From Paenibacillus azoreducens (GTDB lineage Bacteria; Bacillota; Bacilli; Paenibacillales; Paenibacillaceae), in assembly GCF_021654775.1 (NCBI RefSeq), contig NZ_AP025343.1, positions 4,059,501 through 4,123,500 on the forward strand: a stretch of 64,000 bases of DNA, written 5' to 3'. A model generated the notes under the pieces. That model was given only the letters and a program-made list of their open reading frames with translations. It did no database searches and was not told the origin of the DNA. Positions 5,138 to 35,584 of the stretch are shown here, in pieces. A program made the translations under genes and the position numbers. Position 1 is the first letter of the stretch; each line of letters begins with the position of its first letter.

Positions 5138-5395
5138 GGCTCAATACTGAAATTAGTCCTTGACATTGTGCGAGGTGACCGCTGCGGTTACGGATCGTTC
5201 TTCCGATCGCTGCCCATCTCCAAATTTCTTGAATTTTATTTTTCAAAAAGGTAGAAATTCGGAGACAAAGCGTATGCTTCCGATGCTAGCTTTCCTTCGG
5301 AAAGCTTTTAGGCGAACGCTCCCGCTTCGTAAGAATCGATTCCGTCCCCTCCGCTACTTTCGCTTTATGGCAAGCACTAATTATGATATTGAACC
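5138..5395 (+). repeat. MITE-like dispersed repeat, copy A
   Basis: About 258 bp bounded by imperfect inverted ends: 5138-5162 (GGCTCAATACTGAAATTAG...) against 5371-5395 (...TTATGATATTGAACC), about 20 of 25 positions pairing. The inside holds hairpins: GATCGTTCTTCCGATC, a stem pairing CTCCAAATTTCT with AGAAATTCGGAG, and GCTTTCCTTCGGAAAGC. Related copies are at about 26479, 26689 and 35341. It lies 26 nt upstream of the lipoprotein ATG, inside what would otherwise be an operon. Confidence 0.75.
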
Positions 5396-17285: not shown

Positions 17286-19094
17286 CTAGACGGATTCATC
17301 CTCCACCACGAAATTCAAGTGCCGTTCGTCCAGCAAAGCCGTACTTCCGAGGTCCGGCTGGTCAACCAGCGTAATGATCGCCTCTTCCGGCGTGCCGTGA
17401 AGCTCGAACAGGATAATTTCATTACGCCCTTTATGGAGCAATGGCCCAGGAATATACAAAGCTTGCTGCGGACCGGCCTCCCAATAACGACCTAGGTTAA
17501 ATCCATTCACCCAAGCGACGCCTTTTTTCCAGCCGTCAACTCTCAAGAACGTATCCCCGATTCTTTCCACATCGACATAACCCCGGTAAAACGCCGGACC
17601 TTGAACTTGCTCCCCGCCTTCGGTAAAACTCAACTCAGACAGGGAAGCAGGCTCCAGCGGAAGCGTTCTGATCGTCCATCCGTATTGGAACTGGTTATCG
17701 ACGCGCACGCCTTCCATGATTCCTTTCGGATCCCGGAGAAATGGTCCGTAGTTTACCCGGCCCATGTTTTCAACGAGAATGTCAAGTCTAGCACCCTCTT
17801 TCGACACTGAAATATCCAGTGGCTGCGGATTCCAGCGTTCCACCACGCCAAGCAGCTTTCCGTCCAAGAAAACCTGAGCCCGGTCGCGGACATCCTGAAT
17901 ATAAAGCTTTTGCCCCTTGCGCGGACCTTTAACCCAAGTTGAATACAGGATAAACCCGTAAGATTGTCCGAATTTCTCCATTGGTTGAATATAAGCCTGC
18001 TTTACCGGTGTCGACAATGTGTCCAGCTCATCAAACAACGGACTGCATTCCGACAAGGTCACCTGTCCATACGTACATTTGGAAATCGGATCAGGCAGGG
18101 AACATCCCGGTTTGATGCCATGTTTCTCGAACACTTCCCTTACGGCTTCATACTTGCTTGTTAAATCTCCCCATTCGGTCAGCATCGCATCATAATCATA
18201 GCTTGTCACCGTCGGTTCGTATTTTTCCGGATGATTCGCCCCGTTGTAGAACCCGAAGTTGGTACCGCCATGGAACATGTACATGTTGATTGAAGATCCT
18301 GCCTTCAGCATGTCATCCAGCACCTGGCCAACATCAGAAGCCTCCCGGACATGATGGGGTTCCATCCAATGATCGAACCAGCCATTCCAGTATTCCATAA
18401 CCATTAGCGGATCATGCTCTCTATGCTCCCGGAACTTGGCAAAGGATTCGGCAACGCGGGATCCGAAATTCACCGTCGCATGCACGCCGTCTATCGTACC
18501 GCCAATCAGCATTTCATCGGTTGGACCGTCGGAGGTAAAGAGCAGTACATCCACACCTCTTGCAACCAGACCATCGCGAAGATATTCAAGGTAAGAAGTG
18601 TCATTACCAAAACTTCCGTATTCATTTTCGACTTGAACAGCCAAAATCGGCCCGCCGTTGGTCGATAGCAGAGGAACCAGCTTAGGAATCAGCACATCAT
18701 AATACCGGTCCACCTTGGCTAAATAAGCCGGATCATAACACCGCAGGCCCATGTCGCTGTTCTGCAGCAGCCAGGCCGGAAGCCCGCCGAACTCCCATTC
18801 TGCGCAAATGTATGGGCTTGGCCTTACAATCACATAAAGTCCCATTTCATGCGCCAGTTGGATAAACGAAGCGACATCGGCCATGCCGTCAAACACAAAT
18901 TCGCCTTCCTTAGGTTCATGAAAGTTCCAGGGAATATAAGTCTCAACCGTATTAAAACCGCAGGCCTTCAGCTTTTGCAGACGATCTTTCCAATATTCCG
19001 GAACGACACGGAAATAATGAATCGCTCCCGACAGAATCCGGAAAGGCTGCCCGTCCAAAACATATTGTCCATCCTTGATTTCCAGCAAAGTCAT
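17286..19094 (-). CDS. Glycoside hydrolase family 35 beta-galactosidase
   Basis: 602 aa without a signal peptide, so cytoplasmic. It hydrolyses terminal beta-galactosides. The GH35 TIM barrel starts at FRILSGAIHYFRV; acid/base Glu158 lies in VQVENEYG and nucleophile Glu234 in MVMEYWNGWFDHW. The C-terminal beta domains carry the jelly-roll pattern ending RYWEAGPQQALYIPGPLLHKGRNEI. AGGAGTGAG precedes the ATG. It follows the CUT1 binding-protein gene, but a terminator lies between, so expression is by read-through or a weak promoter. It probably releases galactose from imported oligosaccharides. Confidence 0.95.
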   Translation of the reverse strand: MTLLEIKDGQYVLDGQPFRILSGAIHYFRVVPEYWKDRLQKLKACGFNTVETYIPWNFHEPKEGEFVFDGMADVASFIQLAHEMGLYVIVRPSPYICAEWEFGGLPAWLLQNSDMGLRCYDPAYLAKVDRYYDVLIPKLVPLLSTNGGPILAVQVENEYGSFGNDTSYLEYLRDGLVARGVDVLLFTSDGPTDEMLIGGTIDGVHATVNFGSRVAESFAKFREHREHDPLMVMEYWNGWFDHWMEPHHVREASDVGQVLDDMLKAGSSINMYMFHGGTNFGFYNGANHPEKYEPTVTSYDYDAMLTEWGDLTSKYEAVREVFEKHGIKPGCSLPDPISKCTYGQVTLSECSPLFDELDTLSTPVKQAYIQPMEKFGQSYGFILYSTWVKGPRKGQKLYIQDVRDRAQVFLDGKLLGVVERWNPQPLDISVSKEGARLDILVENMGRVNYGPFLRDPKGIMEGVRVDNQFQYGWTIRTLPLEPASLSELSFTEGGEQVQGPAFYRGYVDVERIGDTFLRVDGWKKGVAWVNGFNLGRYWEAGPQQALYIPGPLLHKGRNEIILFELHGTPEEAIITLVDQPDLGSTALLDERHLNFVVEDESV

Positions 19095-19198: not shown

Positions 19199-20578
19199 TT
19201 ACTTGGATTCTTTTTCGTTAATAATTTTCGTTGCTTCATCGACCATCCATTTTTGCACTTGATCGATCGGTTCGTTGCTAAGCATAAACTTACTGAAACC
19301 GTCATCAATGACTTTGGTAAGGTCCGAACCGCTAGTTGTAACCACTTTGGAAGCATCCAAATATTTGATATCTGGGCCAAACAGAGTATTTTTCAAAGAT
19401 TCCACATCATATTTATCCGTGTTTTTGCCGATCAAGCGGTCGAGCAATTTGTTTTGATCCGCTTTTTTCCAGCCGGAGAACTCTTGTCTTGCATCCGAGT
19501 CGTTTGTCGTCATAAAGCGCATCAGTTTAAATGCTTCTTCTTTATGTTTGGATGTTGCGCCCATTGCAAGCTGTCCGCCGCCTACAAAATATTTTCCGCC
19601 TTCGTAATCTTTAGGCAGAGCGTTTTGCGGAGGAAGAGGTACCGGTGCGAATGCTGTTTTGAAATCATGCGGGTACTGCTCGACATTGCCCGGATCCGGA
19701 ATCATGAAGCTTCCTGTAAGAAGCATTGCCGCGCTGCCGCTGAAGAATTCGCTTCGGTAGTTCAGCTTGGCCGCCAGCGTATCCGCATATGTTTTTGCCG
19801 ACTTGTCCACGGTCTCCATATCCTTGCGGAGTTGGAAGAAATATTTGTAGGTCGGGTCGGACAAGATCGTTGTTCCGTCATCATAGCGATACGGATCTTT
19901 CATGACAGTCTGTGCCGGAGCGTTCACGTATAGCTCCCAAGTGTGGAAATAGGTTCCGTACCGTTTGTCGGTACCTTCGCCTTTGGTCAGCTTCTTCGCG
20001 TACTCGCGGAAGTCATCCCAGGTCCAGCCGAACTTTGGTACAGCCAATCCGGCTTCATCCAGAGCATCTTTATTGAGCAGGATGAATTGATAGCCGGCCG
20101 TCATTTGCATGCCGTAATATTTGTCATCGACCTTAGGGTTGACATAATATTCATCTTCCGGCTTCAGGCCTTCTTTGTCGTAAAATTCATTCAATGGAGC
20201 AAATGCGCCTCTTGCTGCTCTTTCGACTACGCCACCTGCGCTTGGCAAGTTAACGACGTCGATGGCTTCACCCGAAGAAATCAAAAAGTCCAATTTTTTC
20301 ATCATTTCGACGGAATTACCCGGAACAAGCACGACATGCTCAACTTTGATGCCCGGGTTTTGCGCTTCGAACTCCTTCAGCATGGCATCTGTGTTTCCTT
20401 CTTGATCCGCATTATCCCAGTTGTAATACTTCAGGGTGATTTGGTCCCCTGATTTCCCTGCATCATCGCTTGACTTGCTTGCAGAATCGGAGTTGCCGCC
20501 GCATCCGCTCAGCACTGTGAACAAAGATAACAGCAGACACGTCGAAGCCAAGAAATTGCGTTTGCTTTTCTTTCTCAT
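19199..20578 (-). CDS. CUT1 sugar ABC transporter substrate-binding lipoprotein
   Basis: 459 aa; ATG at 20578 (MRKKSKRNF...) after TAGGGGGC. Lipobox VLSGC at about residue 26. Type I binding fold: LKYYNWDNADQEGNTDAMLKEFEAQNPGIKVE, GWTWDDFREYAKKLT, and EEAFKLMRFMTTN near the end. It binds an oligosaccharide and delivers it to the permeases at 20695 and 21548. It is transcribed from its own promoter with a GTCAAAAT-type direct repeat (20655-20684), separate from the permease promoter, which allows higher expression. The ligand is probably a galactose/fucose/uronic-acid-bearing glycan given the neighbouring hydrolases (inference). Confidence 0.9.
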   Translation of the reverse strand: MRKKSKRNFLASTCLLLSLFTVLSGCGGNSDSASKSSDDAGKSGDQITLKYYNWDNADQEGNTDAMLKEFEAQNPGIKVEHVVLVPGNSVEMMKKLDFLISSGEAIDVVNLPSAGGVVERAARGAFAPLNEFYDKEGLKPEDEYYVNPKVDDKYYGMQMTAGYQFILLNKDALDEAGLAVPKFGWTWDDFREYAKKLTKGEGTDKRYGTYFHTWELYVNAPAQTVMKDPYRYDDGTTILSDPTYKYFFQLRKDMETVDKSAKTYADTLAAKLNYRSEFFSGSAAMLLTGSFMIPDPGNVEQYPHDFKTAFAPVPLPPQNALPKDYEGGKYFVGGGQLAMGATSKHKEEAFKLMRFMTTNDSDARQEFSGWKKADQNKLLDRLIGKNTDKYDVESLKNTLFGPDIKYLDASKVVTTSGSDLTKVIDDGFSKFMLSNEPIDQVQKWMVDEATKIINEKESK

Positions 20579-20654
20579 TTTTCTGCCCCCTACATGGAAG
20601 TTGTCCTCGCTTGCAATCTCAGTATAATAATTGGGCACTGCTTGGACGTGCATA

Positions 20655-20684
20655 ATTTTGAGGTAAAAAGATAACTTTTTTGAC
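20655..20684 (-). promoter_or_regulatory. Candidate YesN operator, binding-protein gene
   Basis: Read on the minus strand: GTCAAAAA (20684-20677) and CTCAAAAT (20662-20655), start-to-start 22 bp. The -10-like TATACT (20626-20621) begins 36 nt after the start of the proximal copy, the same spacing as at three other units of the locus. Confidence 0.7.
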
Positions 20685-20694
20685 CTTTTGCGTC

Positions 20695-21531
20695 TTAGCC
20701 TTTTACGCCGCCAAGCGCAATACCGTTGATAACCTGTTTCTGCAGAACAACGAACACAATCAGCAGCGGAATTATGGCGGAAAGCGATGCCATCATCATA
20801 ATCGCGTCGTTGGTCGTATAGTCATCCCGGAACAGCGTCATGCCGAGCGGTATCGTATACAATTCCTTGGTTTGCAGGAAGATCAGCGGGTTTTGGTAGT
20901 CGTTCCAGGACCAAATGAATTTGATGATGGCTACGGTTGCCAGCACAGGCCGGCAGAGCGGAACGATGACCGAGAAAAACGTTCTTAAATGACCCGCGCC
21001 GTCGATTTTTGCCGCCTCAATAAATTCGTCGCTGATGCCAACCATGAATTGGCGCAGCAAAAAGGTGAAGTAGATCGAGAACATACTCATCAAAATCAAC
21101 GCGACATGGGTATCATATAGGCCCAACCAGCGGATCAGCATAAAGCGCGGAATGAGCGTAGCCTGATCCGGAATGATCATAAAAGCAAGCAGTGCCGTAA
21201 AGACGATGTTTCTCCCGCGGAATTTCAGCTTCGTGAACGAATATGCCGCCATCGTCGACACAAGCAATGTAACGAAAGTCACGATTATAGCGACTTTGAT
21301 GGAGTTCATGTATATATGTATAAAAGGTACTTTCCCCATCCAAACCGCTTTGAAATTGTACACCACATTGATGGATTTGGGAATCCACTCAATCGGGAAC
21401 CGCATGACGTCCTTTTCGAATTTAAAGGCTGACGACAGCATCCATATAAACGGAATCAAGAAGAAAATGGACAATACAGCCATTAAAATTGTAGTGATTA
21501 TTTTCGTGAAGTTTTTACGGATAAACAGCAT
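20695..21531 (-). CDS. CUT1 carbohydrate ABC transporter permease, MalG type
   Basis: 278 aa, six membrane segments; EAA loop EAAKIDGAGHLRTFFSVIVP and the typical C-terminal GIALGGVKG. It begins 16 nt after the partner permease stop, so they are translated from one mRNA. With 21548-22483 it forms the channel for the glycan imported by the binding protein at 19199. No ATPase gene is nearby; a shared MsmX-like ATPase is assumed. Confidence 0.92.
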   Translation of the reverse strand: MLFIRKNFTKIITTILMAVLSIFFLIPFIWMLSSAFKFEKDVMRFPIEWIPKSINVVYNFKAVWMGKVPFIHIYMNSIKVAIIVTFVTLLVSTMAAYSFTKLKFRGRNIVFTALLAFMIIPDQATLIPRFMLIRWLGLYDTHVALILMSMFSIYFTFLLRQFMVGISDEFIEAAKIDGAGHLRTFFSVIVPLCRPVLATVAIIKFIWSWNDYQNPLIFLQTKELYTIPLGMTLFRDDYTTNDAIMMMASLSAIIPLLIVFVVLQKQVINGIALGGVKG

Positions 21532-21547
21532 AATGTCATCTCCTCCC

Positions 21548-22483
21548 TTAAGAATCCTCTCTTCTCATTTTCCATGTTGCTGCCGTAATGATCCCGATAA
21601 TGGCAAACAACAACCAGGATATAGCGGATGCATAACCCATGTTATAGTTCACGAATCCTTCCTCGTAAATCCGGAACACGATTACCGTCGAAGAATTATC
21701 CGGTCCGCCTTCTGTCAGGTAGGAGATAATATCGAATACTTTAAATGAACCGATCAGCATCGTTATCAGCAAGAAAAAGGTCGTAGAGCGAAGCAAAGGA
21801 ACCGTGATTTTGAAAAATTTCGTCAACCCGGTCGCGCCGTCGATCTCCGCAGCTTCATAAAGCTCGCTTGAGATGTTCGTCAGACCGGCCAAATAAATGA
21901 TAATCGTATATCCGAGTCCTGCCCACGCGCTTATGATCGCGATCGCGATCAGAGACGTCTTCGGATCCACGAGCCATTTCGGCGGATTGGAAATTCCGAT
22001 GTCCATCAGGAACTGGTTAATCGGTCCAAGCGATGGATGGAATAATGCGCTCCATACGGCTGCAACCGCAATGATAGACGAAATATAAGGGATAAAAAAT
22101 ACGACTTTAAAATAATCCTTAAAAAATACTTTGTTGTGAATGATTACGGCCAGGACGAGTGCGATCGCAATTGGCACAGGCACTGTCAGCACCGTGTAGA
22201 GCAGGTTGTTTTTCAAGGCCTTCATAATCGTAGGATCCTGGAACATGTGAATGTAGTTTTCCAGTCCTGCGAATTTAATGCCCGACATCCCTGAAAGCAA
22301 ATTCCAGGAAGTAAAACTCAAATACAGAGAAAAGCCGAGCGCAAATACATTGAGCAGCAGCATCCCGACAATTTCCGGGGCGAGAAATAACCAGCCGACT
22401 AATGCTTCCTTGCGTTTCGGAGTCCAAAATTTTCGAGGATTTTGAAGCTTCTCCGTCGGGTAACTCGGTTTAGCAGCTTCCAC
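21548..22483 (-). CDS. CUT1 carbohydrate ABC transporter permease, MalF type
   Basis: 311 aa; GTG start at 22483 with GAGGTGAT 6 nt upstream. A charged cytoplasmic N-tail (about 30 residues, RKFWTPKRKEALVGWLFLAP) leads to six membrane segments; EAA loop EAAEIDGATGLTKFFKITVP. First gene of the permease pair. Its promoter carries the GTCAAAAT-type direct repeat (22551-22580) and a good -35/-10 pair (TTTGTG, 17 nt, TATGAT). Confidence 0.92.
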   Translation of the reverse strand: MEAAKPSYPTEKLQNPRKFWTPKRKEALVGWLFLAPEIVGMLLLNVFALGFSLYLSFTSWNLLSGMSGIKFAGLENYIHMFQDPTIMKALKNNLLYTVLTVPVPIAIALVLAVIIHNKVFFKDYFKVVFFIPYISSIIAVAAVWSALFHPSLGPINQFLMDIGISNPPKWLVDPKTSLIAIAIISAWAGLGYTIIIYLAGLTNISSELYEAAEIDGATGLTKFFKITVPLLRSTTFFLLITMLIGSFKVFDIISYLTEGGPDNSSTVIVFRIYEEGFVNYNMGYASAISWLLFAIIGIITAATWKMRREDS

Positions 22484-22516
22484 TTCGCATCACCTCAACA
22501 TGAATTAGTTGACTTA

Positions 22517-22580
22517 ATCATAAAGTAAACGAAGTTTCCACAAAGGACGGATTCTGACTTGATACGGGTAAAATTTTGAC
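22517..22580 (-). promoter_or_regulatory. Promoter and candidate YesN operator of the permease pair
   Basis: On the minus strand: GTCAAAAT (22580-22573) and GTCAGAAT (22558-22551), 22 bp apart; then -35 TTTGTG, a 17-nt spacer and -10 TATGAT (22522-22517), which begins 36 nt after the start of the proximal copy. The proximal site abuts the -35, as for AraC-type class II activators. Confidence 0.75.
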
Positions 22581-22600
22581 TTTTCTCTCCATAAAGTACG

Positions 22601-22882
22601 TGTTCAAAAAGGCCGGTTTTCAGCACCGAGAAGGTTGGATGAAGCTAAGGACTGAGGAGCGGAGCGTACGTAGTGGGTACGTGAGCACCGGAAGGCCTGG
22701 CTGAATTCAAGATTCGATGTCGTTCCAGCTTCCTGATTCACTTCGTGTTAGATATAGGATTTATAAGTTATCAGCTACGCTGATGAAATTCTATATCGCA
22801 AGAAAACCTACCTATGCATCGCGGTCGCTCATCCTTGAGTTACTTCGATTGGTTTTCTTATCAAAAGCGGACTTTTTGAACA
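22601..22882. repeat. 282-bp element with terminal inverted repeats and nested hairpins
   Basis: The ends TGTTCAAAAAGGCCGGTTTT (22601-22620) and AAAAGCGGACTTTTTGAACA (22863-22882) pair at 18 of 20 positions. Inside are CGTAC/GTACG, GATATAG/CTATATC enclosing ATCAGC/GCTGAT, and AAGAAAACC/GGTTTTCTT. It contains no convincing gene. It lies between the YesN stop and the permease promoter. It is either a MITE or a structured RNA; the sequence alone cannot decide. Confidence 0.7.
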
Positions 22883-22970
22883 TCCTCTTAAAGAAAACGG
22901 GACCGTTCCCCTCAATCCTCAGATCGGATCGGAAGAAACGGCCCCGCATCAAATAATTGCCAAAGGCAAT

Positions 22971-24569
22971 CTATCGGGCGTATTTGTTGACGGCATACTT
23001 TGTTTTATATTCACTTGGCGTCATGCCGATGTATTTCTTAAACACTTTGGAAAAATAAGTCCGATCCGAATACCCCAGCCCCATCGCAAGCGATTCGAGC
23101 GTCTGGCCCGAGGTTTTCATCATCTTCGCGGCGATGGTCATTTTGTATTGATGGACGTAATCCGTAAAATTGACGCCAGTCAAACGCTTAAAATAACGCG
23201 AAAAATAGCTGGAGTTCAGGTATAAATAACGCGCCATGTCAATGGACGTGATATTATCGGCTAAATGCTGATCGATAAACTGCTGGATCTGCTGCAATTT
23301 AGGCTCTTGTGCGGACGAGACGGCATTCCCTTGTTTATTTTGGGCAATAAAAACCAGCTGCCTTTCGGCAAGCTCAAGCACATCCTCCAAGGTTCTGGCT
23401 GCGGAAAGATAGCTGTATCTCGCTTCATCCGCTTTTCTTCCCGAAAACATCATAGCGACGCCGCGCAAAAAAAGAGTGACCTCTTGCACGAACTCATTTG
23501 GCTCAAACCGTTTCTCCCGGACTTTGGCGCCAATAGAAACTATCATATCGTGGATGCAATGGACGTCGTTTTTTAAGACCGCGCGTTCCAAGTCCGCTTT
23601 ATAGGCATCCAATGACCCATGAGGAAACGGCAGGAATACACGCTGCATATGAAGCTGCATATCCGCCACCTTCTGATCGTCGCCCTCGTAGAACCCATGT
23701 TTGTGATGAATGATTTGATGGTAGCAGTTTCCGACAGCCCGCAAATCCATTTTATCGTTGACCGTCACGATGTTCAGCTGCAATTTTAAAAATTGCGCTG
23801 TTCTTGACCGCAGCTCATCCATATATCTTTGAAAATACGGGCAGACATTATCCGCCAGATTCAGCCGGTAGTTGTATAACACGATCAGGTTGTCCTGATC
23901 CAGGAACGGAGTGATTCCTTCATACGCTGCCGAAAGCTCCACCGCGATATTGTAAATGGCATAAGTGATCAGTGACAAATTGTTCCGGACGTACAACGTT
24001 TCGTACGAAGAATAGTGGAGATTGACCACTCCCAGCATAAACCAAGGGTATCCCCAGGAAATGCCGATCCCTGCGGCATACTCTACCGTTGACTCGGGAT
24101 GCCCTCCGTCAATGACTCGCTGGATCAGACCCTGCTTGAATAGTTCTCTATTATAATGCGATGCTTTCTGCCCCATAGGGGCGGATTTCTTCTGCAAAAA
24201 GAGAATTGATTTATTTAAGCTTTGTTCCAGTTGGTCCGGCGTCAATTGATCTTTAAGCAAGTAGTCATCCGCATTCAGCTTAACCGCCTGTTGCGCGTAA
24301 TGAAAGTCTTCGTGGCAGGTCAAAAAGATAACGCGGATATCGGGCTTCATGCTGCGAAAAGCCGCCGCCAGCTCGATTCCGTTTTTCTGCGGCAATCCGA
24401 TATCCGTAATCACGATATCAGGCCATGTTTCTTTAAAAAGATGCAGCGCTTTGGCGCTGGAATAAGTCGTTCCAACAATGTTCAGCTGAAGCGCTTCCCA
24501 CTCGATCATTTGCTGCAGTACTTTAAGCATCGGGACATCATCATCAATCAGCATTACTTTATGCATCAC
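22971..24569 (-). CDS. YesN-like response regulator with AraC-type DNA-binding domain
   Basis: 532 aa. GTG at 24569 lies 8 nt after AGGAGG; an ATG 3 nt further in is the alternative. Receiver domain residues 1-120 with phospho-acceptor Asp56 (IVITDIGLP) and DD at 10-11; a long variable middle; C-terminal double helix-turn-helix (about 425-525) with the AraC signature LESLAMGLGYSDRTYFSKVFKKYIGMTPSEYK. It should be phosphorylated by the kinase encoded just upstream and activate the surrounding transporter and hydrolase genes. The shared direct repeats at four promoters are its likely binding sites (inference). Confidence 0.93.
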   Translation of the reverse strand: MMHKVMLIDDDVPMLKVLQQMIEWEALQLNIVGTTYSSAKALHLFKETWPDIVITDIGLPQKNGIELAAAFRSMKPDIRVIFLTCHEDFHYAQQAVKLNADDYLLKDQLTPDQLEQSLNKSILFLQKKSAPMGQKASHYNRELFKQGLIQRVIDGGHPESTVEYAAGIGISWGYPWFMLGVVNLHYSSYETLYVRNNLSLITYAIYNIAVELSAAYEGITPFLDQDNLIVLYNYRLNLADNVCPYFQRYMDELRSRTAQFLKLQLNIVTVNDKMDLRAVGNCYHQIIHHKHGFYEGDDQKVADMQLHMQRVFLPFPHGSLDAYKADLERAVLKNDVHCIHDMIVSIGAKVREKRFEPNEFVQEVTLFLRGVAMMFSGRKADEARYSYLSAARTLEDVLELAERQLVFIAQNKQGNAVSSAQEPKLQQIQQFIDQHLADNITSIDMARYLYLNSSYFSRYFKRLTGVNFTDYVHQYKMTIAAKMMKTSGQTLESLAMGLGYSDRTYFSKVFKKYIGMTPSEYKTKYAVNKYAR

Positions 24570-24671
24570 ATTGCATTCCTCCTTGCAAAACTAACCCCAC
24601 AAAGTGAACCGCGGCCTTCGAAGTTTATTCCGATTACTTTGCGGGGAGCCCCCTTATCATTAATAAATTCT

Positions 24672-26381
24672 TTATTGCAAAGAAAGCCTGGTCGAATGAA
24701 TTGGAATTTGAATCCGGGCCGTGATTCCGTTATGCATATTTGTACCCAGCGAAAGCGTGGCCTCGGGGCCGAATGAAAGCTTGAGCCTTTGAGCGATATT
24801 GATCAGTCCGACCCTTTGGTATGAAGGATCCGGTTCGCGATCGCAGTTCAGCAGAAGATCATTTAACCGGCACAGCTGTTCTTCCTCCATGCCTTCACCA
24901 TTATTTTCGATTTCGATCCGAATACAGTCGTCTTTCTTGTGGGCGGAAATCCAAACCTTCGCATCCGGGTGGTCCACGAATCCATGGACGATGGCGTTTT
25001 CAATTATGGGTTGGAGCATCAGTTTGGGAAGCTTCCAGGACTTCAAATCCGGTTCCAAATCGATTGTCAGCTGGACCGGAATTTCATTGCGGATCTTCAT
25101 AATATCGATATAATGCCGCATCAATTCGCATTCTTCCTGCAATGTCGCTGTTTCATTAAACTTCATGTAGGCGCGGAGCAAACTCATCAAGGAGTCGATA
25201 ATGCCGCTGTGAACATAATCCTTCTGCAAAATTAAACTGCATTTGATTGAATTCAGCGTATTGATCAGAAAATGGGGGCGGATTTGCATGAACAACGCCT
25301 CAAGTTCCATAACCCTTTTCTGTTCCTGCTCCCGCTCGATATCATGAATCAAGCCTTGAAGCTGGTCCAGCATCGTATTTAATGTACGGCTCAGTTCGGC
25401 GATATCATCCCGGCCCTTCACCTCAAGTCTCGCATCCAGATTGCCCATGCCGAATTGGCGAACGACCCGCTGCAGTTTTTGGATCGGCCTATGTAACCTT
25501 TTCGCAATAAACATCGAGGATATCGAGAAAATAATGAAAAACAGGATAACACCGCCGATCCCCATATAAAATGTTCTAGAAATTTTACCCGTAAAAGCCT
25601 CTTTGCTCGCTTCGTATACCAAAGTCCAATCGGTTTTGTCCAGCGTCATTTCCGAATGAAGGTTGGAGTGGGCATAGGCCGTGTTGGGCGGAGCAAGCTC
25701 CGTGCTTCCCGCAATCCTGCTGCCCTTGGCGTCAAAAAGAGCAACTTTGCCAAATTCGACCGGCTTCAGCAGTTTTTCAAAATAAGGCTCCGAGATGCCG
25801 ATCAAGAGAACCGATAAATATTCTTTTTCATGGTCGTCGTAAATGATTCTGGCGATGTAATATGTTCCTTCTTTTCCAGGTTCATCACGCATCATTCCCA
25901 ACCATTGCAGCGTTTCCGGCTGATTGAAATTGATTTTTTGATATAAAGCGTCCAAGCTTTTATGCATGGCTGACAGATCATCTTCGCCCGACGGAATAAT
26001 GAAGCGCTTTCGATTCACAAGATACATGCGCGTATTGTTATTTAACGGTTTGGTGGTAATCAGGGAAAAGACGCCTTTAATCTGCGTAAAATTCGTATAA
26101 TCATCGTATGTGCGCAGCCTGTCCGTATCCGCAAAGTTCTTCAAATAGGTTCTGAAGCTCGTATCGTTAACGATAAAATGGGAAGCAAACGTAACATCAT
26201 CGATCGTTTTTCCGATTTCATCAATCATGACATTCAAAAAGTTCTCATTTGTTAATTGAAGCTTTTCTACCATCGTTTCTTTAATCAAAACAAAAGAGAT
26301 CACCGATACGGTTATGATCGGAACAATGATGAACAATAGGAATGACAGCTGTATTCTCTTGTAGTAAGTCAATTTGAACAC
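24672..26381 (-). CDS. YesM-like sensor histidine kinase
   Basis: 569 aa, GTG start at 26381. Two membrane segments (about 11-33 and 272-292) enclose a ~240-residue extracellular sensor domain of the dCache type. HAMP domain about 293-345 (RLHRPIQKLQRVVRQFGMGNLDARLE); His_kinase domain with His370 in MQIRPHFLINTLNSIK; ATP-binding N box QPIIENAIVHG and the G-rich NNGEGM. The signal is probably an extracellular sugar or a liganded binding protein. It is paired with the 22971-24569 regulator 102 nt downstream. The ~100 nt upstream of it has no GTCAAAAT repeat, so the pair itself is not obviously autoregulated by that site. Confidence 0.93.
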   Translation of the reverse strand: MFKLTYYKRIQLSFLLFIIVPIITVSVISFVLIKETMVEKLQLTNENFLNVMIDEIGKTIDDVTFASHFIVNDTSFRTYLKNFADTDRLRTYDDYTNFTQIKGVFSLITTKPLNNNTRMYLVNRKRFIIPSGEDDLSAMHKSLDALYQKINFNQPETLQWLGMMRDEPGKEGTYYIARIIYDDHEKEYLSVLLIGISEPYFEKLLKPVEFGKVALFDAKGSRIAGSTELAPPNTAYAHSNLHSEMTLDKTDWTLVYEASKEAFTGKISRTFYMGIGGVILFFIIFSISSMFIAKRLHRPIQKLQRVVRQFGMGNLDARLEVKGRDDIAELSRTLNTMLDQLQGLIHDIEREQEQKRVMELEALFMQIRPHFLINTLNSIKCSLILQKDYVHSGIIDSLMSLLRAYMKFNETATLQEECELMRHYIDIMKIRNEIPVQLTIDLEPDLKSWKLPKLMLQPIIENAIVHGFVDHPDAKVWISAHKKDDCIRIEIENNGEGMEEEQLCRLNDLLLNCDREPDPSYQRVGLINIAQRLKLSFGPEATLSLGTNMHNGITARIQIPIHSTRLSLQ

Positions 26382-26478
26382 CCTAAGCTCAGCCTCTTTC
26401 TTGCTGTTATGATATTTATGCCTTCCTATCGTATATCGGCAGATCCTCTTTTGTCATTGACTTTATTCAAATAAATCC

Positions 26479-26687
26479 GTCTCAGAACTAAAAGAACCTT
26501 GCATTTTGCGAGGTGGTCGCTACGGTTACGGATCGTTCTTCCGATCGCTGTTGTCTCCAAATTTCTTGATTTTGTTTTTTATAGGTAGAAATTCGGAGAC
26601 AAAGGCGAACGCTACCGCTTCTTCAGATCGATTCCGTCCCCTCCGCTACTTTCGCTTTTTTTCAAGCACTAATCATGATGTTGAGCC
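26479..26687 (+). repeat. MITE-like dispersed repeat, copy B
   Basis: Closely similar to copy A (GCGAGGTGG-CGCTACGGTTACGGATCG, GGTAGAAATTCGGAGACAAA, GATTCCGTCCCCTCCGCT, CAAGCACTAATCATGATGTTGAGCC). It lacks about 45 bp that copy A has in the middle (the GCTTTCC hairpin). The left inverted end is degenerate, so that boundary is approximate. Confidence 0.7.
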
Positions 26688-26688
26688 G

Positions 26689-27007
26689 CTATATTAGTTG
26701 AATAAATGAGTCTGCAATGCAGCTCGGAGAAATGTTCTTCCGATCGCTGTTCTCTCCGAATTTTTATGATTCAAGCGTATTCATGGTAGAAATTCGCTCA
26801 CAAAGCGTATGCTTACGATGCTAGCTTTCCTACGGAAAGCTTTTAGGCGAACGCAGCTTATGCTTCCGAGGTAGCTTTTTTTCAAAAAGCTTTCAGCTTC
26901 TTCAGAATCATTTTCCTTAGGTTCAGTATTCTTACGTGGTTCTTCTTTAGAATATTGAACCCACTTGCTTGATCCTTTATCCTTCTGTTCAGTTCAACTT
27001 ATTTAGA
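26689..27007 (+). repeat. MITE-like dispersed repeat, copy C
   Basis: Bounded by CTATATTAGTTGAAT (26689-26703) and GTTCAACTTATTTAG (26993-27007), inverted repeats with two mismatches. The inside shares GTTCTTCCGATCGCTG, GGTAGAAATTCGCTCACAAAGCG and the GCTTTCC hairpin with copies A and D, plus an extra hairpin GTTCAGTATTCT/AGAATATTGAAC near the end. The right end overlaps the GH88 stop codon. Confidence 0.7.
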
Positions 27008-28135
27008 TTCCCGCTCGTACCAGTATCCATGAATTCCTTTTTCCATCCGCATCAAAGCCTCCAGATAGAAATAGTCGCCCCAGATCATATAGTCGTCAGG
27101 CGATAAACCTCCGTGGACATAATACGATCCGTGCTTGAGCAGTCCTTCGGCATCATCTTCACCAATTGTGGAATACCGCTCAACCAGACTATTCATGGAT
27201 TTCACAAGCATCTCTTCGAAATAGCTGCGGTCCGGGTCGCCGGCATCCAGATGGGATATCAATTCGACCAAACCTGCCACCACAATGGCGGAAGCCGAGC
27301 TGTCACGATAAGTGTCAGGACCTGCCGGAGCATTGAAATCCCAATACGCCACATGATCTTCCGGCAGATGTTCAAGGAAATAACGGGCAACCCGTTTCGA
27401 TGTGTTCAGGAATAACGGATTTTTCGTATACCGGTATGAAAGGGCAAAGCCGTACACACCCCACGCTTGTCCTCTCGTCCATGTCGAACCGTTGGAAAAA
27501 CCTTGATGCGTTGCCCCGCCAATCGGTTCACCCGTTTCAGGATTAAAAAAGAATGTATGGTAAGAGCTATCGTCTCCCCTAACCAGGTAACGCCGGGTTT
27601 GCTCCGCTTGCTTGATGGCGGCATACCGGTAGGACGGATCATCCGTTTGCTCGCTTGCCCAATATAGCAAAGGAAGATTCAGCAAACAGTCGATAATGAT
27701 TCTTCCCGCTTCCTTGGGATCATCTTTTGCGCCCCAGGCCTGAATGTAACCTCCAGGTTCGCGCCAGCGTCTCAACAGCACATCTGCCGCTTCCAATGTA
27801 AGCTTCCGCGCCTGCTCGTCCTTAGTGACAATCCATTGCGCTTTCGAGGATAAAGAGTATAAAAATCCAATGTCATGATGATCCAGTACCACATGGTTAT
27901 CCAGGCGTTTCCGGAAGTTCGCCACCGTGGCTTCGGCTGCTTGACGATACCGTTCATCCTGCGAATATTCGTAACATAACCAGAGCATGCCTGACCAGAA
28001 GCCGTTAGTCCAGTCCGTATTGTCGTTCAACTCGTATGTTCCGTTTTGACTCACATGAGGGAATTTTGCTCCGAACCTGTCGATATTTTTTAACGTTTTT
28101 GATAAAGCGTCTTCTATCGCCTTTGTCCAATCCAC
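26999..28135 (-). CDS. Glycoside hydrolase family 88 unsaturated glucuronyl hydrolase
   Basis: 378 aa, almost exactly the length of characterised unsaturated glucuronyl hydrolases. GTG start at 28135 chosen because GGGGAGGAA lies 7 nt before it. The two key aspartates fall at the numbering known from the Bacillus enzyme: Asp88 in LDHHDIGF and Asp149 in GRIIIDCLLNLP. RGQAWGVYGFALSYRYT is a further family motif. It hydrates the 4,5-unsaturated uronic acid left by polysaccharide lyases and releases it. No signal peptide, so it acts inside on imported oligosaccharides. The TAA stop lies inside the terminal repeat of element C. Promoter with GTCAAAAT repeat at 28217-28246. Confidence 0.93.
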   Translation of the reverse strand: MDWTKAIEDALSKTLKNIDRFGAKFPHVSQNGTYELNDNTDWTNGFWSGMLWLCYEYSQDERYRQAAEATVANFRKRLDNHVVLDHHDIGFLYSLSSKAQWIVTKDEQARKLTLEAADVLLRRWREPGGYIQAWGAKDDPKEAGRIIIDCLLNLPLLYWASEQTDDPSYRYAAIKQAEQTRRYLVRGDDSSYHTFFFNPETGEPIGGATHQGFSNGSTWTRGQAWGVYGFALSYRYTKNPLFLNTSKRVARYFLEHLPEDHVAYWDFNAPAGPDTYRDSSASAIVVAGLVELISHLDAGDPDRSYFEEMLVKSMNSLVERYSTIGEDDAEGLLKHGSYYVHGGLSPDDYMIWGDYFYLEALMRMEKGIHGYWYERESK

Positions 28136-28182
28136 TCTAATTCCTCCCCATTTTTTCACCTTAGCGATCCTAAATTAACATC

Positions 28183-28246
28183 ATCATATCGAAAAAAGGC
28201 AATCCTAATGGGTTTGAATTTTTGCAGTGATGTGCAATATTTTGAC
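28183..28246 (-). promoter_or_regulatory. Promoter and candidate YesN operator of GH88
   Basis: On the minus strand: GTCAAAAT (28246-28239) and a weak second copy CAAAAATT (28224-28217), 22 bp apart; the -10-like TATGAT (28188-28183) begins 36 nt after the start of the second copy. Confidence 0.6.
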
Positions 28247-28268
28247 TTTTTTTGTTTCGAAACCGTAC

Positions 28269-30560
28269 TTATTTTGCTTTTAATCCGATTCGGAAGACGC
28301 TGCCGGCCGGAATATTGAAACGATAGGTATGGTTCTCTGGATCAACCGGAATCGCTGCACCACGGAAATCGCGGAACTCAAGCGGTATTTCACTGTAAAT
28401 CACGCATTCCTTTCCAAGCTGGGAAGCGATCTTGGCCTCATGCAGCCGCCCCTCCGACCATTGGATATCAACCGCAAAACCTCCCCTTGCACGCAATCCG
28501 GTCACCCGGCCGGCTGGCCATTCTTTCGGCAATGCGGGAAGAAGGCGAATTTCCCCGGCATGCGACTGCAGCAGCATCTCCTGAATGGCCGCGGCCCCGC
28601 CAAAATTGGCATCAATCTGAAATGGCGGATGATCGCCGAATAAGTTGGGATGGACGGCTTTACGCAAAAGATTTTGCAAGCTGCTGTATGCCTGGCCGCC
28701 ATCGCCCAGCCTTGCCCAAAAATTCGCGATCCAAGCCTGGCTCCATCCCGTGTGCCCGCCGCCATGCGCCAATCTCCGCTCTAGCGTATGTCTTGCTGCA
28801 GCTCCTAGTTCCGGCATACGATGGGGAATGATCTGTTCTCCCGGATGCAGCGCAAACAGTTGCGAAATATGGCGGTGCCCCGGCTCCGCTTCTTCGTAGT
28901 CGACGGACCATTCCATGATCTGGCCGTACCGCCCGATTTGCGGTTTGGGAAGTCTGCTTCGGGCTTGCGTCCATTCCGTTTGAAGCGGTTGATCAAGTCC
29001 CAATTGCTCCGCAGCTTCGATACAGGCGCTAAATAGCGCATACACGATTTGAGAATCCATGGAGGGGCCGTAACATAATGAACCGGCTTCTCCTTGTTCC
29101 GTTATATAACGATTTTCCGGAGACAAAGAAGGTGATGTGATAAGCTGTCCGGATGAATCTTCCACCAAAAAGTCCAGGAAAAATAGAGCCGCTTCTTTTA
29201 GTACAGGATAGGCCCGGTCGCGCAAAAATGCGTCAGAACCGTTATATCGATAATGCTCCCATAAATGAAGCGCGATCCATGCGCCACCTGTCGGCCAAAT
29301 GTTGGCGGATGTGAATGCCCCAAACACTCCGGTATCGGCCCATATATTGCTCATGGTATGGGCTGTAAATCCTCTCGCGCCGTATAAATCCCGGGCCGTT
29401 TTGCGTCCGTTCACGATCAGTCTGTCAATGAAATCAAAAAGCGGTTCATGGCATTCCGCCAAATTCGCCGTCTCCGCAATCCAATAATTCATCTGCAAAT
29501 TAATGTTCAGATGGAAATCGGACTCCCAAGGCGGCGTAAAGCTTTCATTCCATATGCCCTGCAAATTGGCGGGCAGGCACCCGGGTCTGGAACTTGCGAT
29601 CAGCAAATAGCGCCCATAATGGTAAAACAATTCTTCAAGCCCTCTGTCCGCCCCACCTTGCCGGTATTTCGCCAGACGTTCCGACGTTGGCAAGTGGCAT
29701 TGCCCCATATCCTCTTCTTCTAATTCCAGATGAACCCGGTCAAATAATTGCCTATGATCATAAACATGTCTTTGCTTAAGCTCGGCATAAGGTATAGCAG
29801 CGGCAAGTTCAGCCTGTTGTACAGTTTCACGAAAAGGATCGCTGTGCCGGAATGATGTTTGAGCAGCAACAATTAACGTCACCGAGTCTGCTTGGCGGAT
29901 ATCCAGATAGTTACCGACCGCCACGGATTCCCCGCCTTCGGTTACGGCATGAATCACCGCGGCATACTGCACACCGTCAGGCCCGGATTGCCCCCTCATG
30001 CCAATACTGCTTGCGCTTCTAGTGACTTCGCCGTCAAATGGCCTCCGGCTTAACCTTGCAGTCAAAGAAAGCGCACCCGGTTTGGAAGCGGTGAGACGAA
30101 TAATCAGCACTTGATCGGCCGCGCTCGCAAATGCTTCCCGGCTGTATTCCGTAGAACCCATCTTATAGGTGACCGCAGCAATACCGGTTTGAAGGTCGAG
30201 CTCACGCCGATATTCTGCGGCCTGCTCCTGCCCTTCCAAGCGAAGCAATACATCGCCCAAAGGCTGGTATGGGCCAAAATAATGCGGGGCGTTAGTCATA
30301 TGTAAAAGAGCCAGCCGTTCGGCCTCCTGCGGTTTTCCTTCCAACAGCAGCTTTCTGATTTCCGGCAGCTTCCCGAGTGCGGCGGGGTTGTCGTTTCCTT
30401 TCGGACCGCCGTACCACAGGGAATCTTCATTCAATTGAATCCTTTCCGCCTGGGTTCCCCCGAAAATCATGCCGCCTAAGCGGCCGTTACCGATTGGAAA
30501 TGCCTCCGTCCATATTTTTGCAGGCTCCAGTTCGATGAATTTACATGAATTACTGCCCAT
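28269..30560 (-). CDS. Glycoside hydrolase family 95 alpha-L-fucosidase
   Basis: 763 aa without signal peptide, a cytoplasmic enzyme. The N-terminal beta domain opens with the family pattern [19 protein letters not shown] and [11 protein letters not shown]; the (alpha/alpha)6 catalytic barrel contains [12 protein letters not shown] and [12 protein letters not shown] (the Asn pair that supports catalysis in GH95), and a late [13 protein letters not shown] and [17 protein letters not shown]. It cleaves alpha-1,2-fucose (some members alpha-galactose) from glycans. An ATG with GGGGGAAG upstream is used. Own promoter with paired GTCAAAAT sites (30711-30740). It ends 23 nt before the GH88 operator. 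Confidence 0.93.
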
Positions 30561-30676
30561 CTTCCTTCCCCCTTCTTTGGTTAAAGGTCACAATTCTTCA
30601 ATAAACAAATGTGCGTCATTCTAATAAGGTATGATTTTTATGGATGATTTTAATTATAGTAGCATCGCTTTCACTT

Positions 30677-30740
30677 AAGATAGTGGATTGTTATGGTCAT
30701 ATGGGGGAGTATTTTGACGGGGAATGGGCGTAATTTTGAC
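30677..30740 (-). promoter_or_regulatory. Promoter and candidate YesN operator of GH95
   Basis: On the minus strand: two exact GTCAAAAT copies (30740-30733 and 30718-30711), 22 bp apart; the -10-like TATCTT (30682-30677) begins 36 nt after the start of the proximal copy. A TATAAT further down (30658-30653) is an alternative -10. Confidence 0.75.
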
Positions 30741-30804: not shown

Positions 30805-32370
30805 TTAAATTTGTTTTACCTGCCAAAGTGCCGGAACATTAGGCGGCTCCCAACCCGGAAGCGATGTATGCGGCTGGCGGCAAATATAGGTTTTGCCTCC
30901 ATACGCGACTTCATCATTTGCTTTATAGCTGACGTTTGCAGCCCAGCCTTGGGAGTTTCCGCCTCCTCCTGCATCGGTTGTCACGTTGATTGTGGTCCCA
31001 GTTGAAATGTTGCCCGCTGCATCCCTCGCTGTCACGGTAAACTGGTAGCTGGTGTTTGGCTCAAGCCCGCTAATCGTCGTATTTGTTCCCGATACATTAA
31101 CGCTGCTCGCTCCATAAGTAATGGTGTAACCCGTAACGCCCACATTATCTGTCGATGCCGTCCAACTCAAGGAGACGCTGGTTGAGGATTTGGCTGTCAC
31201 CGTGACATTCGTCGGTGCCGTTGGCGGCTGCGTATCCGGAACCGACGGACTTAGCGCATCCAAATAAGCACGATGACTGTCCGAAAATTCAAAATGGTTA
31301 AACTTATCCCAGTTAATGGACCATGTCATCAAGCCGCGGAAATTCGGGTATCCGCTTGCATTGCCGCGCATTTGGTAATTGGACAGCTGCTTGCCTTTGA
31401 TCAAGGCGTCAAGCGCTTTTTGCACTTCGGCGACGGAAGTGAATCCCCCTCCCGCATTGGGACTGGCCGGCAAACCGAGCAGCACTTGATCCGGGCGGAG
31501 AGCCGGAAAGAAGCTATTCGGGTTTTTGGCGACCGGGAAGCCCGTCAACAGCATATCGGCCATCGCGACATGGAAATCGGCGGACCCCATATTATGGTAT
31601 TGATCATCAAGCCCCGTGATCGGACCGGAGTTATAGTTCTGCACCTGCAGCCAATCGAGAATATCGCGTGTTGCATAGATGACCGGCAAATACGCGCCTG
31701 AGCGGTTGTCGCAGCTGATGCAGCTGCCGCCATAGAAAGAATATCCAAGCTGCACGAAAAAGGTCTCCGGCGCCATGGTCAGATAAAACTTATCCGTACC
31801 AAAGTGATCATTAATCGTCCGCAAAGCGGTAATCAAATTGACGATCACCGGAGTGGTCGGATTTTTGAAGTCGCTGTCCCCCGCATTCAAGTAAAGCGAA
31901 TGCCCTTCGAAATCAACATCCAGTCCGTCGAAACCGTATTTCTCAATGATGGCCGTTACGGAGGAAACAAAATTGTCACGGGCCGCCGTACTGGCCAACT
32001 GGACTTGACCGTTTGCGCCTCCGATGGAGATGATGACTTTTTTCCCTTGGCTTTGCAGGTATGCAACGTCCGCCTTAAACTCCGCATCGGTGTAATTAAA
32101 CGGAGTAAACCCGATGGCACCATTCGTAACGCCTGCCGTAGGCTCCGCAAAAGAAACGTTGATTACGTCAAATTTGGGCGACACGTCGCGCAGCTTAATA
32201 AAACCCGATCCGTTCTCAAAGTTATGCCAGTAGCCTACAATCGTTTTATTGGCTACCGCTGCATGCGCCTTCGGCGTGTTAAACGACCCGAATAAAAGCA
32301 GTGATAATATCAGGACCACAATAATGGAAATTGCCCTTGGCTTGCGAAATGTAAAATGATTAACGCCCAT
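30805..32370 (-). CDS. Secreted GH18 chitinase with fibronectin III and chitin-binding domains
   Basis: 521 aa. Signal peptide about 1-37 (cleavage near AHA). The GH18 TIM barrel follows, with the DxxDxDxE motif at 148-155 (FDGLDVDFEG) giving acid Glu155, and ISIGGANG on the preceding strand. A fibronectin type III domain spans about 385-470 (PPTAPTNVTVTAKSSTSVSL...). The C-terminal CBM5/12 type chitin-binding domain runs about 478-521 (YKANDEVAYGGKTYICRQPHTSLPGWEP). It is an extracellular endochitinase of the ChiD type. GAGGAGGGG precedes the ATG. It has no GTCAAAAT repeat and is probably not in the YesN regulon. Confidence 0.95.
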   Translation of the reverse strand: MGVNHFTFRKPRAISIIVVLILSLLLFGSFNTPKAHAAVANKTIVGYWHNFENGSGFIKLRDVSPKFDVINVSFAEPTAGVTNGAIGFTPFNYTDAEFKADVAYLQSQGKKVIISIGGANGQVQLASTAARDNFVSSVTAIIEKYGFDGLDVDFEGHSLYLNAGDSDFKNPTTPVIVNLITALRTINDHFGTDKFYLTMAPETFFVQLGYSFYGGSCISCDNRSGAYLPVIYATRDILDWLQVQNYNSGPITGLDDQYHNMGSADFHVAMADMLLTGFPVAKNPNSFFPALRPDQVLLGLPASPNAGGGFTSVAEVQKALDALIKGKQLSNYQMRGNASGYPNFRGLMTWSINWDKFNHFEFSDSHRAYLDALSPSVPDTQPPTAPTNVTVTAKSSTSVSLSWTASTDNVGVTGYTITYGASSVNVSGTNTTISGLEPNTSYQFTVTARDAAGNISTGTTINVTTDAGGGGNSQGWAANVSYKANDEVAYGGKTYICRQPHTSLPGWEPPNVPALWQVKQI

Positions 32371-35340: not shown

Positions 35341-35584
35341 ACTATATAAGTTGAACCAATGATTATGAACGGAAGGAGGCAGTCGGGTGAAATGTTCTTT
35401 CGATCACTGTTGCTCACAGATTTCTATGATTGGAACCTATCTTAGGTAGAAATCCGCTCACAAAGCATATGCTTACGATGTTAGCTTTCCTTTGGAAAGC
35501 TTTTAGGCGAACGCTCCGCTTCTCCGTAAATCTTTCCCCCTCTTGCCTTTCCCTTTTCATTTTCTTTAGTTCAACTTATATAGT
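35341..35584 (+). repeat. MITE-like dispersed repeat, copy D, with perfect ends
   Basis: ACTATATAAGTTGAAC (35341-35356) and GTTCAACTTATATAGT (35569-35584) are perfect 16-bp terminal inverted repeats around 212 bp. The interior shares GAAATGTTCTTTCGATC, GGTAGAAAT-CGCTCACAAAGC and the GCTTTCC-TTT-GGAAAGC hairpin with copy C. The remaining gap 35102-35340 shows nothing clear. Confidence 0.85.

Follow-up and report, generated by a model that had tools for sequence, protein, structure and literature searches.

We analysed a window of 64,000 nucleotides from Paenibacillus azoreducens (contig NZ_AP025343.1, positions 4,059,501 to 4,123,500), in which a YesM-type sensor kinase and a YesN-type AraC response regulator are encoded within a glycan locus. 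Paired direct repeats stand upstream of a -10-like hexamer before four genes or operons of this locus and before an unlinked gene for a PL8 polysaccharide lyase, and they recur before the same genes in relatives that encode this YesN. Comparison of the sequences makes it very probable that these sites are operators of the locus's own YesN, which would occupy the two units as a dimer and activate transcription from over the -35 position.

An earlier note on this DNA had placed the four sites of the window upstream of a GH95 gene, a GH88 gene, a pair of ABC permease genes and the gene for a solute-binding protein, and all four were recovered at those coordinates on the minus strand. Each repeat unit would consist of an A-box and, one helical turn on, a B-box, for the two helix-turn-helix (HTH) motifs of one AraC-type domain. 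The predicted operators and their -10-like hexamers are the following.

30711..30740, minus strand: operator 1 (GH95), an GTCAAAAT pair at a 22-bp step with 0 mismatches
30677..30682, minus strand: -10-like TATCTT (GH95), 58 nt from the start of the distal copy
28217..28246, minus strand: operator 2 (GH88), distal copy GTCAAAATATTGCAC and proximal A-box GCAAAAAT at a 21-bp step
28183..28188, minus strand: -10-like TATGAT (GH88), 58 nt from the start of the distal copy
22551..22580, minus strand: operator 3 (permease pair), GTCAAAAT and GTCAGAAT at 22 bp with 1 mismatch
22517..22522, minus strand: -10-like TATGAT (permease pair), 58 nt from the start of the distal copy
20655..20684, minus strand: operator 4 (binding protein), GTCAAAAA and CTCAAAAT at 22 bp with 2 mismatches
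20621..20626, minus strand: -10-like TATACT (binding protein), 58 nt from the start of the distal copy

The common 22-bp step that the note had described holds for GH95, the permeases and the binding protein, but the GH88 pair is better read at 21 bp, where the second copy, GCAAAAAT, agrees with GTCAAAAT in 6 of 8 letters, as against 4 of 8 for CAAAAATT at 22 bp. Likewise, the -10 hexamer begins 36 nt from the proximal copy in the 22-bp register, but the true constant is the distance from the distal copy to the -10, which is 58 nt in all four sites. In operator 1 the second B-box reaches to about 30702, and in operator 4 the proximal unit, CTCAAAATTATGCACGT, looks better than the distal one. 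Scanning the window for GTCAAAAT-N14-GTCAAAAT with up to 3 mismatches gave 4 matches against 1.41 expected, a number reached in 4 of 100 shuffles; the fourth match lies inside an open reading frame (ORF; position 3448, plus strand), and the GH88 site is not among the four, as its second copy matches poorly when read at 22 bp. By count alone, the evidence of the window for the motif is no more than suggestive, and the decisive evidence is that from the rest of the genome and from relatives.

Aligned sites show that the repeat unit is about 17 bp, GTCAAAAT-NN-T-N-CNC, and thus longer than GTCAAAAT alone. Distances were counted over 97 assembled sites, which included GH95 and GH88 sites with 3–4 mismatches and in which the best -10 was searched at 54–64 nt with ties resolved towards 58. 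The distal copy lies 58 nt from the -10 in 68 sites, 59 in 20, 61 in 8 and 57 in 1. All permease, binding-protein, PL8, GH95 and GH112 sites have their proximal copy in register 22; in GH88 sites the register is 20–23 (mostly 21; 19 of 28), and in KduI sites it is 20. The -35 place coincides with the proximal B-box and has no consensus: up to 2 mismatches to TTGACA are found in 9.3% of the sites and in 10.9% of 3000 random places. The architecture of an AraC-type activator, with direct repeats about two helical turns apart at a fixed position over a weak -35, was thus borne out across the 97 sites.

Orthologues of this YesN (55–90% identity) are encoded in 28 Paenibacillus loci (L019–L046; L047 and L048, which match only in part, were left out). 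A YesM match directly precedes yesN in 28 of 28, and the other neighbours vary, among them GH29, a heparinase II/III-type protein, PL8, KduI, a KduD-like dehydrogenase and GH112; the gene set suggests an acidic glycan with galactose and fucose. We applied a strict test to these loci, with gene starts placed by homology: two GTCAAAAT copies with at most 2 mismatches in total, at a 20–23 bp step and within 330 nt upstream, against 40 segment-swap shuffles each that keep dinucleotides. The site was found before permease 1 in 23 of 23 loci (0.05 expected) and before the binding protein in 19 of 22 (0.03 expected). Among the binding-protein misses is L042, where the site is present but at a position that the placed gene start ruled out, and the pair is also present in L035 and L038. 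PL8 (1 of 1), KduI (5 of 5), GH112 (5 of 5) and yesM (1 of 28) also scored. No site was found before permease 2 (23 genes), GH35 (16), yesN (28), heparinase-like (2), KduD (5), DUF2264 (5), the unassigned family c5 (5), GH29 (1), MetE (1) or GH18 (1). In the five loci of the alvei group (L034, L036, L037, L039 and L040), where no transporter genes were found in the stretch examined, it is KduI and GH112 that have the site upstream; L024, in which no GH88 was found, has a GH88-type site immediately upstream of yesM. For the 16 of 28 orthologues that were compared, mean identity to the window YesN is 83% in the DNA-binding domain, 81% in the receiver and 49% in the linker.

In the genome-wide search that the note had called for, allowing up to 2 mismatches, the pattern had 18 matches and its reverse 4, a difference that is not due to chance. 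The three with 0–1 mismatch are GH95, the permeases and a PL8 lyase; the other 15 have 2 mismatches. A model of 45 sites, own sites included (R1), gave five places with E below 1e-6 in 7.3 Mb, the next having E 0.29. A second model (R2; 64 positions) was built from 37 sites of relatives and excludes this genome, its 90% relative L041 and PL8. With 150 of 2088 first-look candidates scored, the R2 bits in the 7.3-Mb genome were 34.6 for the permease site, 33.2 for GH88, 30.4 for PL8, 30.1 for the binding protein and 18.2 for GH95, followed by 14.4. As noted earlier, the chitinase and the 1–8 kb transporter cluster lack the site: neither is among the R2 matches listed. The fifth site stands before the PL8 lyase gene (Pfam) at G000:C1:5567398-5567462, on the same chromosome and 1.48 Mb away, and because R2 was built from relatives only, without PL8, this promoter is an independent prediction. 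Within the 25 genomes that encode the YesN orthologue, 27 PL8-type matches (two of them fragments) occur in 18. Sites before PL8 genes lie 1.5–1.6 Mb from yesN on the same contig in our genome and in G051, and on another contig in G079; the remaining five site-bearing PL8 genes are within about 12 kb of yesN. The nearest solved chain to the PL8 protein is a Paenibacillus xanthan lyase, but GH95, GH29, GH35 and GH112 do not fit the composition of xanthan.

Two PL8 leaders also contain sites resembling the cre consensus of CcpA, TGAAAGCGGTTCCA (L086, about 11324, minus strand) and TGAAAGCGGTTGCA (L087, about 7114, plus strand). Catabolite repression may thus be superimposed there on control by YesN; downstream of the 97 sites, no cre-like site was found besides these two.

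We surveyed 100 genomes of the genus with R2 (E up to 0.01), counting as YesN orthologues proteins of at least 55% identity; some of these genomes had contributed sites to R2. R2 matches occur in 26 genomes, at 78 places, and the YesN orthologue in 25, four more genomes having a YesN of 37–39% identity. All 25 genomes with the orthologue have R2 matches, compared with 1 of the 75 without, the lone exception being a partial match in G076 (E 0.0034). The clustering near yesN orthologues that the note had asked about is evident, as 75 of the 78 matches lie within 15 kb of one. Our own genome has 24 further places with a YesN match of E no higher than 1e-15, and some of these belong to a single gene. 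The first recognition helix of YesN, SYFSRYFK, occurs in none of the 17 AraC-type domains listed around 16 paralogue places of this genome, and the distal unit with a good -10 in none of the 16 stretches. A general scan for direct repeats in the intergenic DNA around the 16 paralogues gave no excess at 21–23 bp steps; such single-genome scans are too weak to claim that all YesN proteins use this spacing.

A sister group of loci shows how far the distal half of the site extends beyond this regulator. Of the 100 genomes, another 30 encode a permease-1 homologue of 57–61% identity, and G081 has one in addition to its orthologue. We examined 23 sister loci, from 20 of the 30 genomes plus G088, G017 and G048 (G021, too fragmentary, and six more were left out). 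R2 gave no match in the 23 loci, and this blindness to the sister sites, which were found by alignment and pattern scans, indicates a distinct operator type. Loci with a YesN of this second subfamily (subfamily B) have at least two sites each with the distal unit GTCAAAA-N3-T-N-(C or T)AC in 21 of 21, at 60 nt from a TATAAT-like hexamer (61 in two sites). The proximal half differs, being GTATGAAAGCTATACCGTA or CCGCAAAGCTGTACACGGT. The sites precede either the binding-protein gene or a gene for a flavin adenine dinucleotide (FAD)-dependent oxidoreductase (assigned by Pfam for two) ahead of the permeases; in L155 the permease comes immediately after the upstream site. The scan also gave two places inside coding sequence (L149 and L151), which do not fit the sister unit. 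A third type of YesN (L137 and L138) is accompanied by a sister-type site in one of two loci. The two main YesN groups are 34–37% identical, yet the first recognition helix, SYFSRYFK, is common to both and the second nearly all common. Combined with a -10, the distal unit gave 93 matches in 52 of the 100 genomes, against 8 for the reverse pattern; of the 92 distinct places, 88 have a permease-1 homologue within 12 kb, and a match is present in 51 of the 55 genomes with such a homologue as against 1 of the 45 without.

These data allow a reading, to which we give an even chance, in which the operator has two separable halves: the distal GTCAAAA-N3-T-N-YAC would be constant across YesN subfamilies that are about 36% identical and have near-identical recognition helices, and the proximal half and the helical phase (58 or 60 nt to the -10) would have diverged and set subfamily identity. 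If true, this would supply a readable rule from helix to half-site for a very large class of regulators, and would predict cross-binding at half-sites in genomes that seem to hold both systems, as G081 does with two permease homologues and four pattern places.

Further features accompany the sister sites. In the binding-protein operator (L106–L108 and L139–L156), the proximal half-site is the centre of an inverted repeat, usually ACCG-N12-CGGT. When G-T pairs are counted, the arms of this repeat extend to 10–11 bp in 10 of 21 loci, where their letters vary; the repeat may form a hairpin of the upstream permease transcript or reflect a second binding mode. A further sister-type site (GTCAAAACTGTCCACC ... 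GGCAATCAGTCTGCACGCT) lies about 5 kb beyond the binding-protein site in G007, G042, G045, G066 and others, and in L106 a similar third site precedes what looks like an ORF for another FAD-dependent oxidoreductase.

In the model that we propose, YesM would respond to a product of an acidic glycan bearing galactose and fucose and would phosphorylate YesN, and the phosphorylated dimer would bind two 17-bp units that are arranged head to tail, on the same face of the DNA and two turns apart. With the distal unit 58 (57–61) nt before the -10, the proximal B-box would cover the -35 place and, as that place is without consensus, transcription would need the activator; its predicted start is about 70 nt downstream of where the distal copy begins. 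Other AraC-type proteins are well established as activators that act from sites over the -35. The predicted targets are GH95, GH88, the permease pair, the binding protein and the unlinked PL8 lyase, and transcription from the GH88 promoter may run on into yesMN. The operator and regulon of the earlier note thus persist at the same promoters in relatives and cluster with yesN. Besides the corrections to the spacing and the unit given above, a fifth, unlinked target has to be added, and the distal half-site turns out to be shared with a sister subfamily.

Several observations weigh against this model. Binding of YesN to the sites and expression of the targets are themselves predictions. Since sites and yesN are linked in one locus, much of their co-occurrence is shared inheritance, which makes it weaker evidence than the distant PL8 sites, and only PL8 copies lie apart from the yesN locus. 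Just 8 of the 27 PL8 genes carry the site (L110, L111 and L117–L122), and the close PL8 homologues L112 and L113 (75–77% identity) are without it. In the strict test, GH88 scored in 14 of 25 loci (0.08 expected), the other 11 having 3–4 mismatches, and GH95 in only 3 of 15; our own GH95 site, at 18.2 bits, reaches only E 0.019 with R2. Finally, the distances between distal copy and -10 are plain counts, taken to the best hexamer in the range searched.

Could the operator belong to another regulator that shares the locus, such as a one-component AraC protein or a global factor? YesN binding being predicted, and the genome holding 24 further YesN-like places, some weight falls on this side, but we consider it unlikely: sites occur in 25 of 25 genomes with this YesN compared with 1 of 75 without, the distal half-site accompanies a sister YesN with near-identical recognition helices in 21 of 21 loci, and the 17 AraC-type domains listed around the 16 paralogue places lack those helices. 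We regard it as very improbable that the repeats are general elements (A-tracts or UP elements) of strong Paenibacillus promoters. Their core is indeed A-rich and just upstream of the -35 place, but no more than five places rise above the rest of the 7.3-Mb genome, the distal unit with a -10 is found 93 times in 100 genomes as against 8 times reversed, and the regions upstream of permease 2, GH35 and yesN in the same loci are without a site. Chance similarity in four A-rich upstream regions, which would accord with the 4 of 100 shuffles of the window alone that give as many matches, is scarcely credible, being refuted by the recurrence of the site upstream of the same genes in 28 loci, where shuffles give no more than 0.08 for a gene class of 22–25, and by the matches of the independent R2 model.

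On the minus strand the locus reads in the order GH18 protein, GH95, GH88, YesM, YesN, two ABC permeases, binding protein and GH35, with families assigned by Pfam.

30805-32370, minus strand: GH18 protein (Pfam)
28269..30560, minus strand: GH95, predicted target gene; family of alpha-L-fucosidases and relatives
26999..28159, minus strand: GH88, predicted target gene; nearest solved chain an unsaturated glucuronyl hydrolase
24672..26381, minus strand: YesM-type sensor histidine kinase with HAMP, His_kinase and HATPase_c
22971..24569, minus strand: YesN-type response regulator with receiver (residues 5-118) and AraC-type HTH (residues 445-523)
22594..22720, minus strand: tested piece of a dispersed repeat, at least 40 copies listed in the genome
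20695..22483, minus strand: two ABC permease genes (21548-22483 and 20695-21531; Pfam), predicted target operon
19199..20653, minus strand: extracellular solute-binding protein (Pfam), predicted target gene
17286..19094, minus strand: GH35 beta-galactosidase, without a site of its own (0 of 16 in relatives)

The pair is of YesMN type: an N-terminal receiver and a C-terminal AraC-type double HTH, an adjacent HAMP/His_kinase gene, and linked sugar-type ABC permeases with a binding protein. Copies of the dispersed repeat mostly stop about 13 bp upstream of the permease operator, and so nothing much further upstream seems to be needed. Pieces related to this repeat extend up to about 22890. A hairpin of 15 pairs with a T-tract (19169-19134) lies between the binding-protein gene and GH35, which, having no operator, may depend on read-through. 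Repeats in the 617-bp gap between GH88 and yesM (26382-26998) recur at 5158-5395, 35342-35514 and elsewhere in the genome; in the 90% relative L041 the gap is only about 180 bp.

To our knowledge, operators have been mapped for few of the many YesN-type AraC response regulators. The present analysis provides exact predicted sites for one of them and ties an unlinked polysaccharide lyase to its locus; as the half-site recurs with a second subfamily in further genomes, the assignment of regulator to operator becomes testable from sequence in this class. In the literature searched, in which subscription journals are thinly covered, we found no published operator of this regulator, which could nonetheless be in print, and no precedent for the present operator, the unlinked PL8 target or the half-site shared by subfamilies. 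A literature text search for GTCAAAAT with AraC listed entries that look unrelated by title and the start of the abstract.

The available parts of PMC3572039, PMC10766802, PMC11034029, PMC9722767 and PMC8579813 contain no operator of this regulator. Solved AraC-type domains (12aw, 6swi, 3oou, 2k9s (AraC) and 7w5w (SoxS)) match the YesN DNA-binding domain by sequence and are distant, at E 1e-16 or weaker, with no close relative among the 60 of 145 matches listed. XydR of Clostridium cellulolyticum, a 532-residue AraC-type response regulator with an adjacent kinase gene, has the same architecture and length; it controls glycan-enzyme genes at two places and its effector domain binds upstream regions, but in the available part of that account common sequences are tabulated and no single consensus operator was found (PMC3572039). 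Pneumococcal YesN (TCS09) and RR07 (TCS07) are also of YesMN type, and TCS07 is assigned to host-glycan metabolism; the candidate motif of RR07, CTWWWWWWAG, differs from ours, and no clear repeat was detected for pneumococcal YesN in the part of the source available (PMC11034029).

A close comparison is with the AraC-type two-component regulators of Caldicellulosiruptor bescii, AviRS, MosSQ, BxgRS, AxuRS and AxeRS; tandem operators for regulators of this kind are already predicted in that genus (PMC8579813). According to the available part of that work, three of the five systems have predicted tandem-repeat sites upstream of promoter elements and are called activators because of that position; its methods give a periodicity of 21 or 32 bp for what the text terms inverted repeats, apparently meaning tandem ones (PMC8579813). 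The available part of the account does not mention a half-site common to different subfamilies (PMC8579813). Genus and genes are different, but the arrangement, as far as that part describes it, is similar to the one found here: a CUT1-type ABC transporter and glycan enzymes are encoded next to a local two-component regulator, and the sites were recognized by the same comparative method (PMC8579813).

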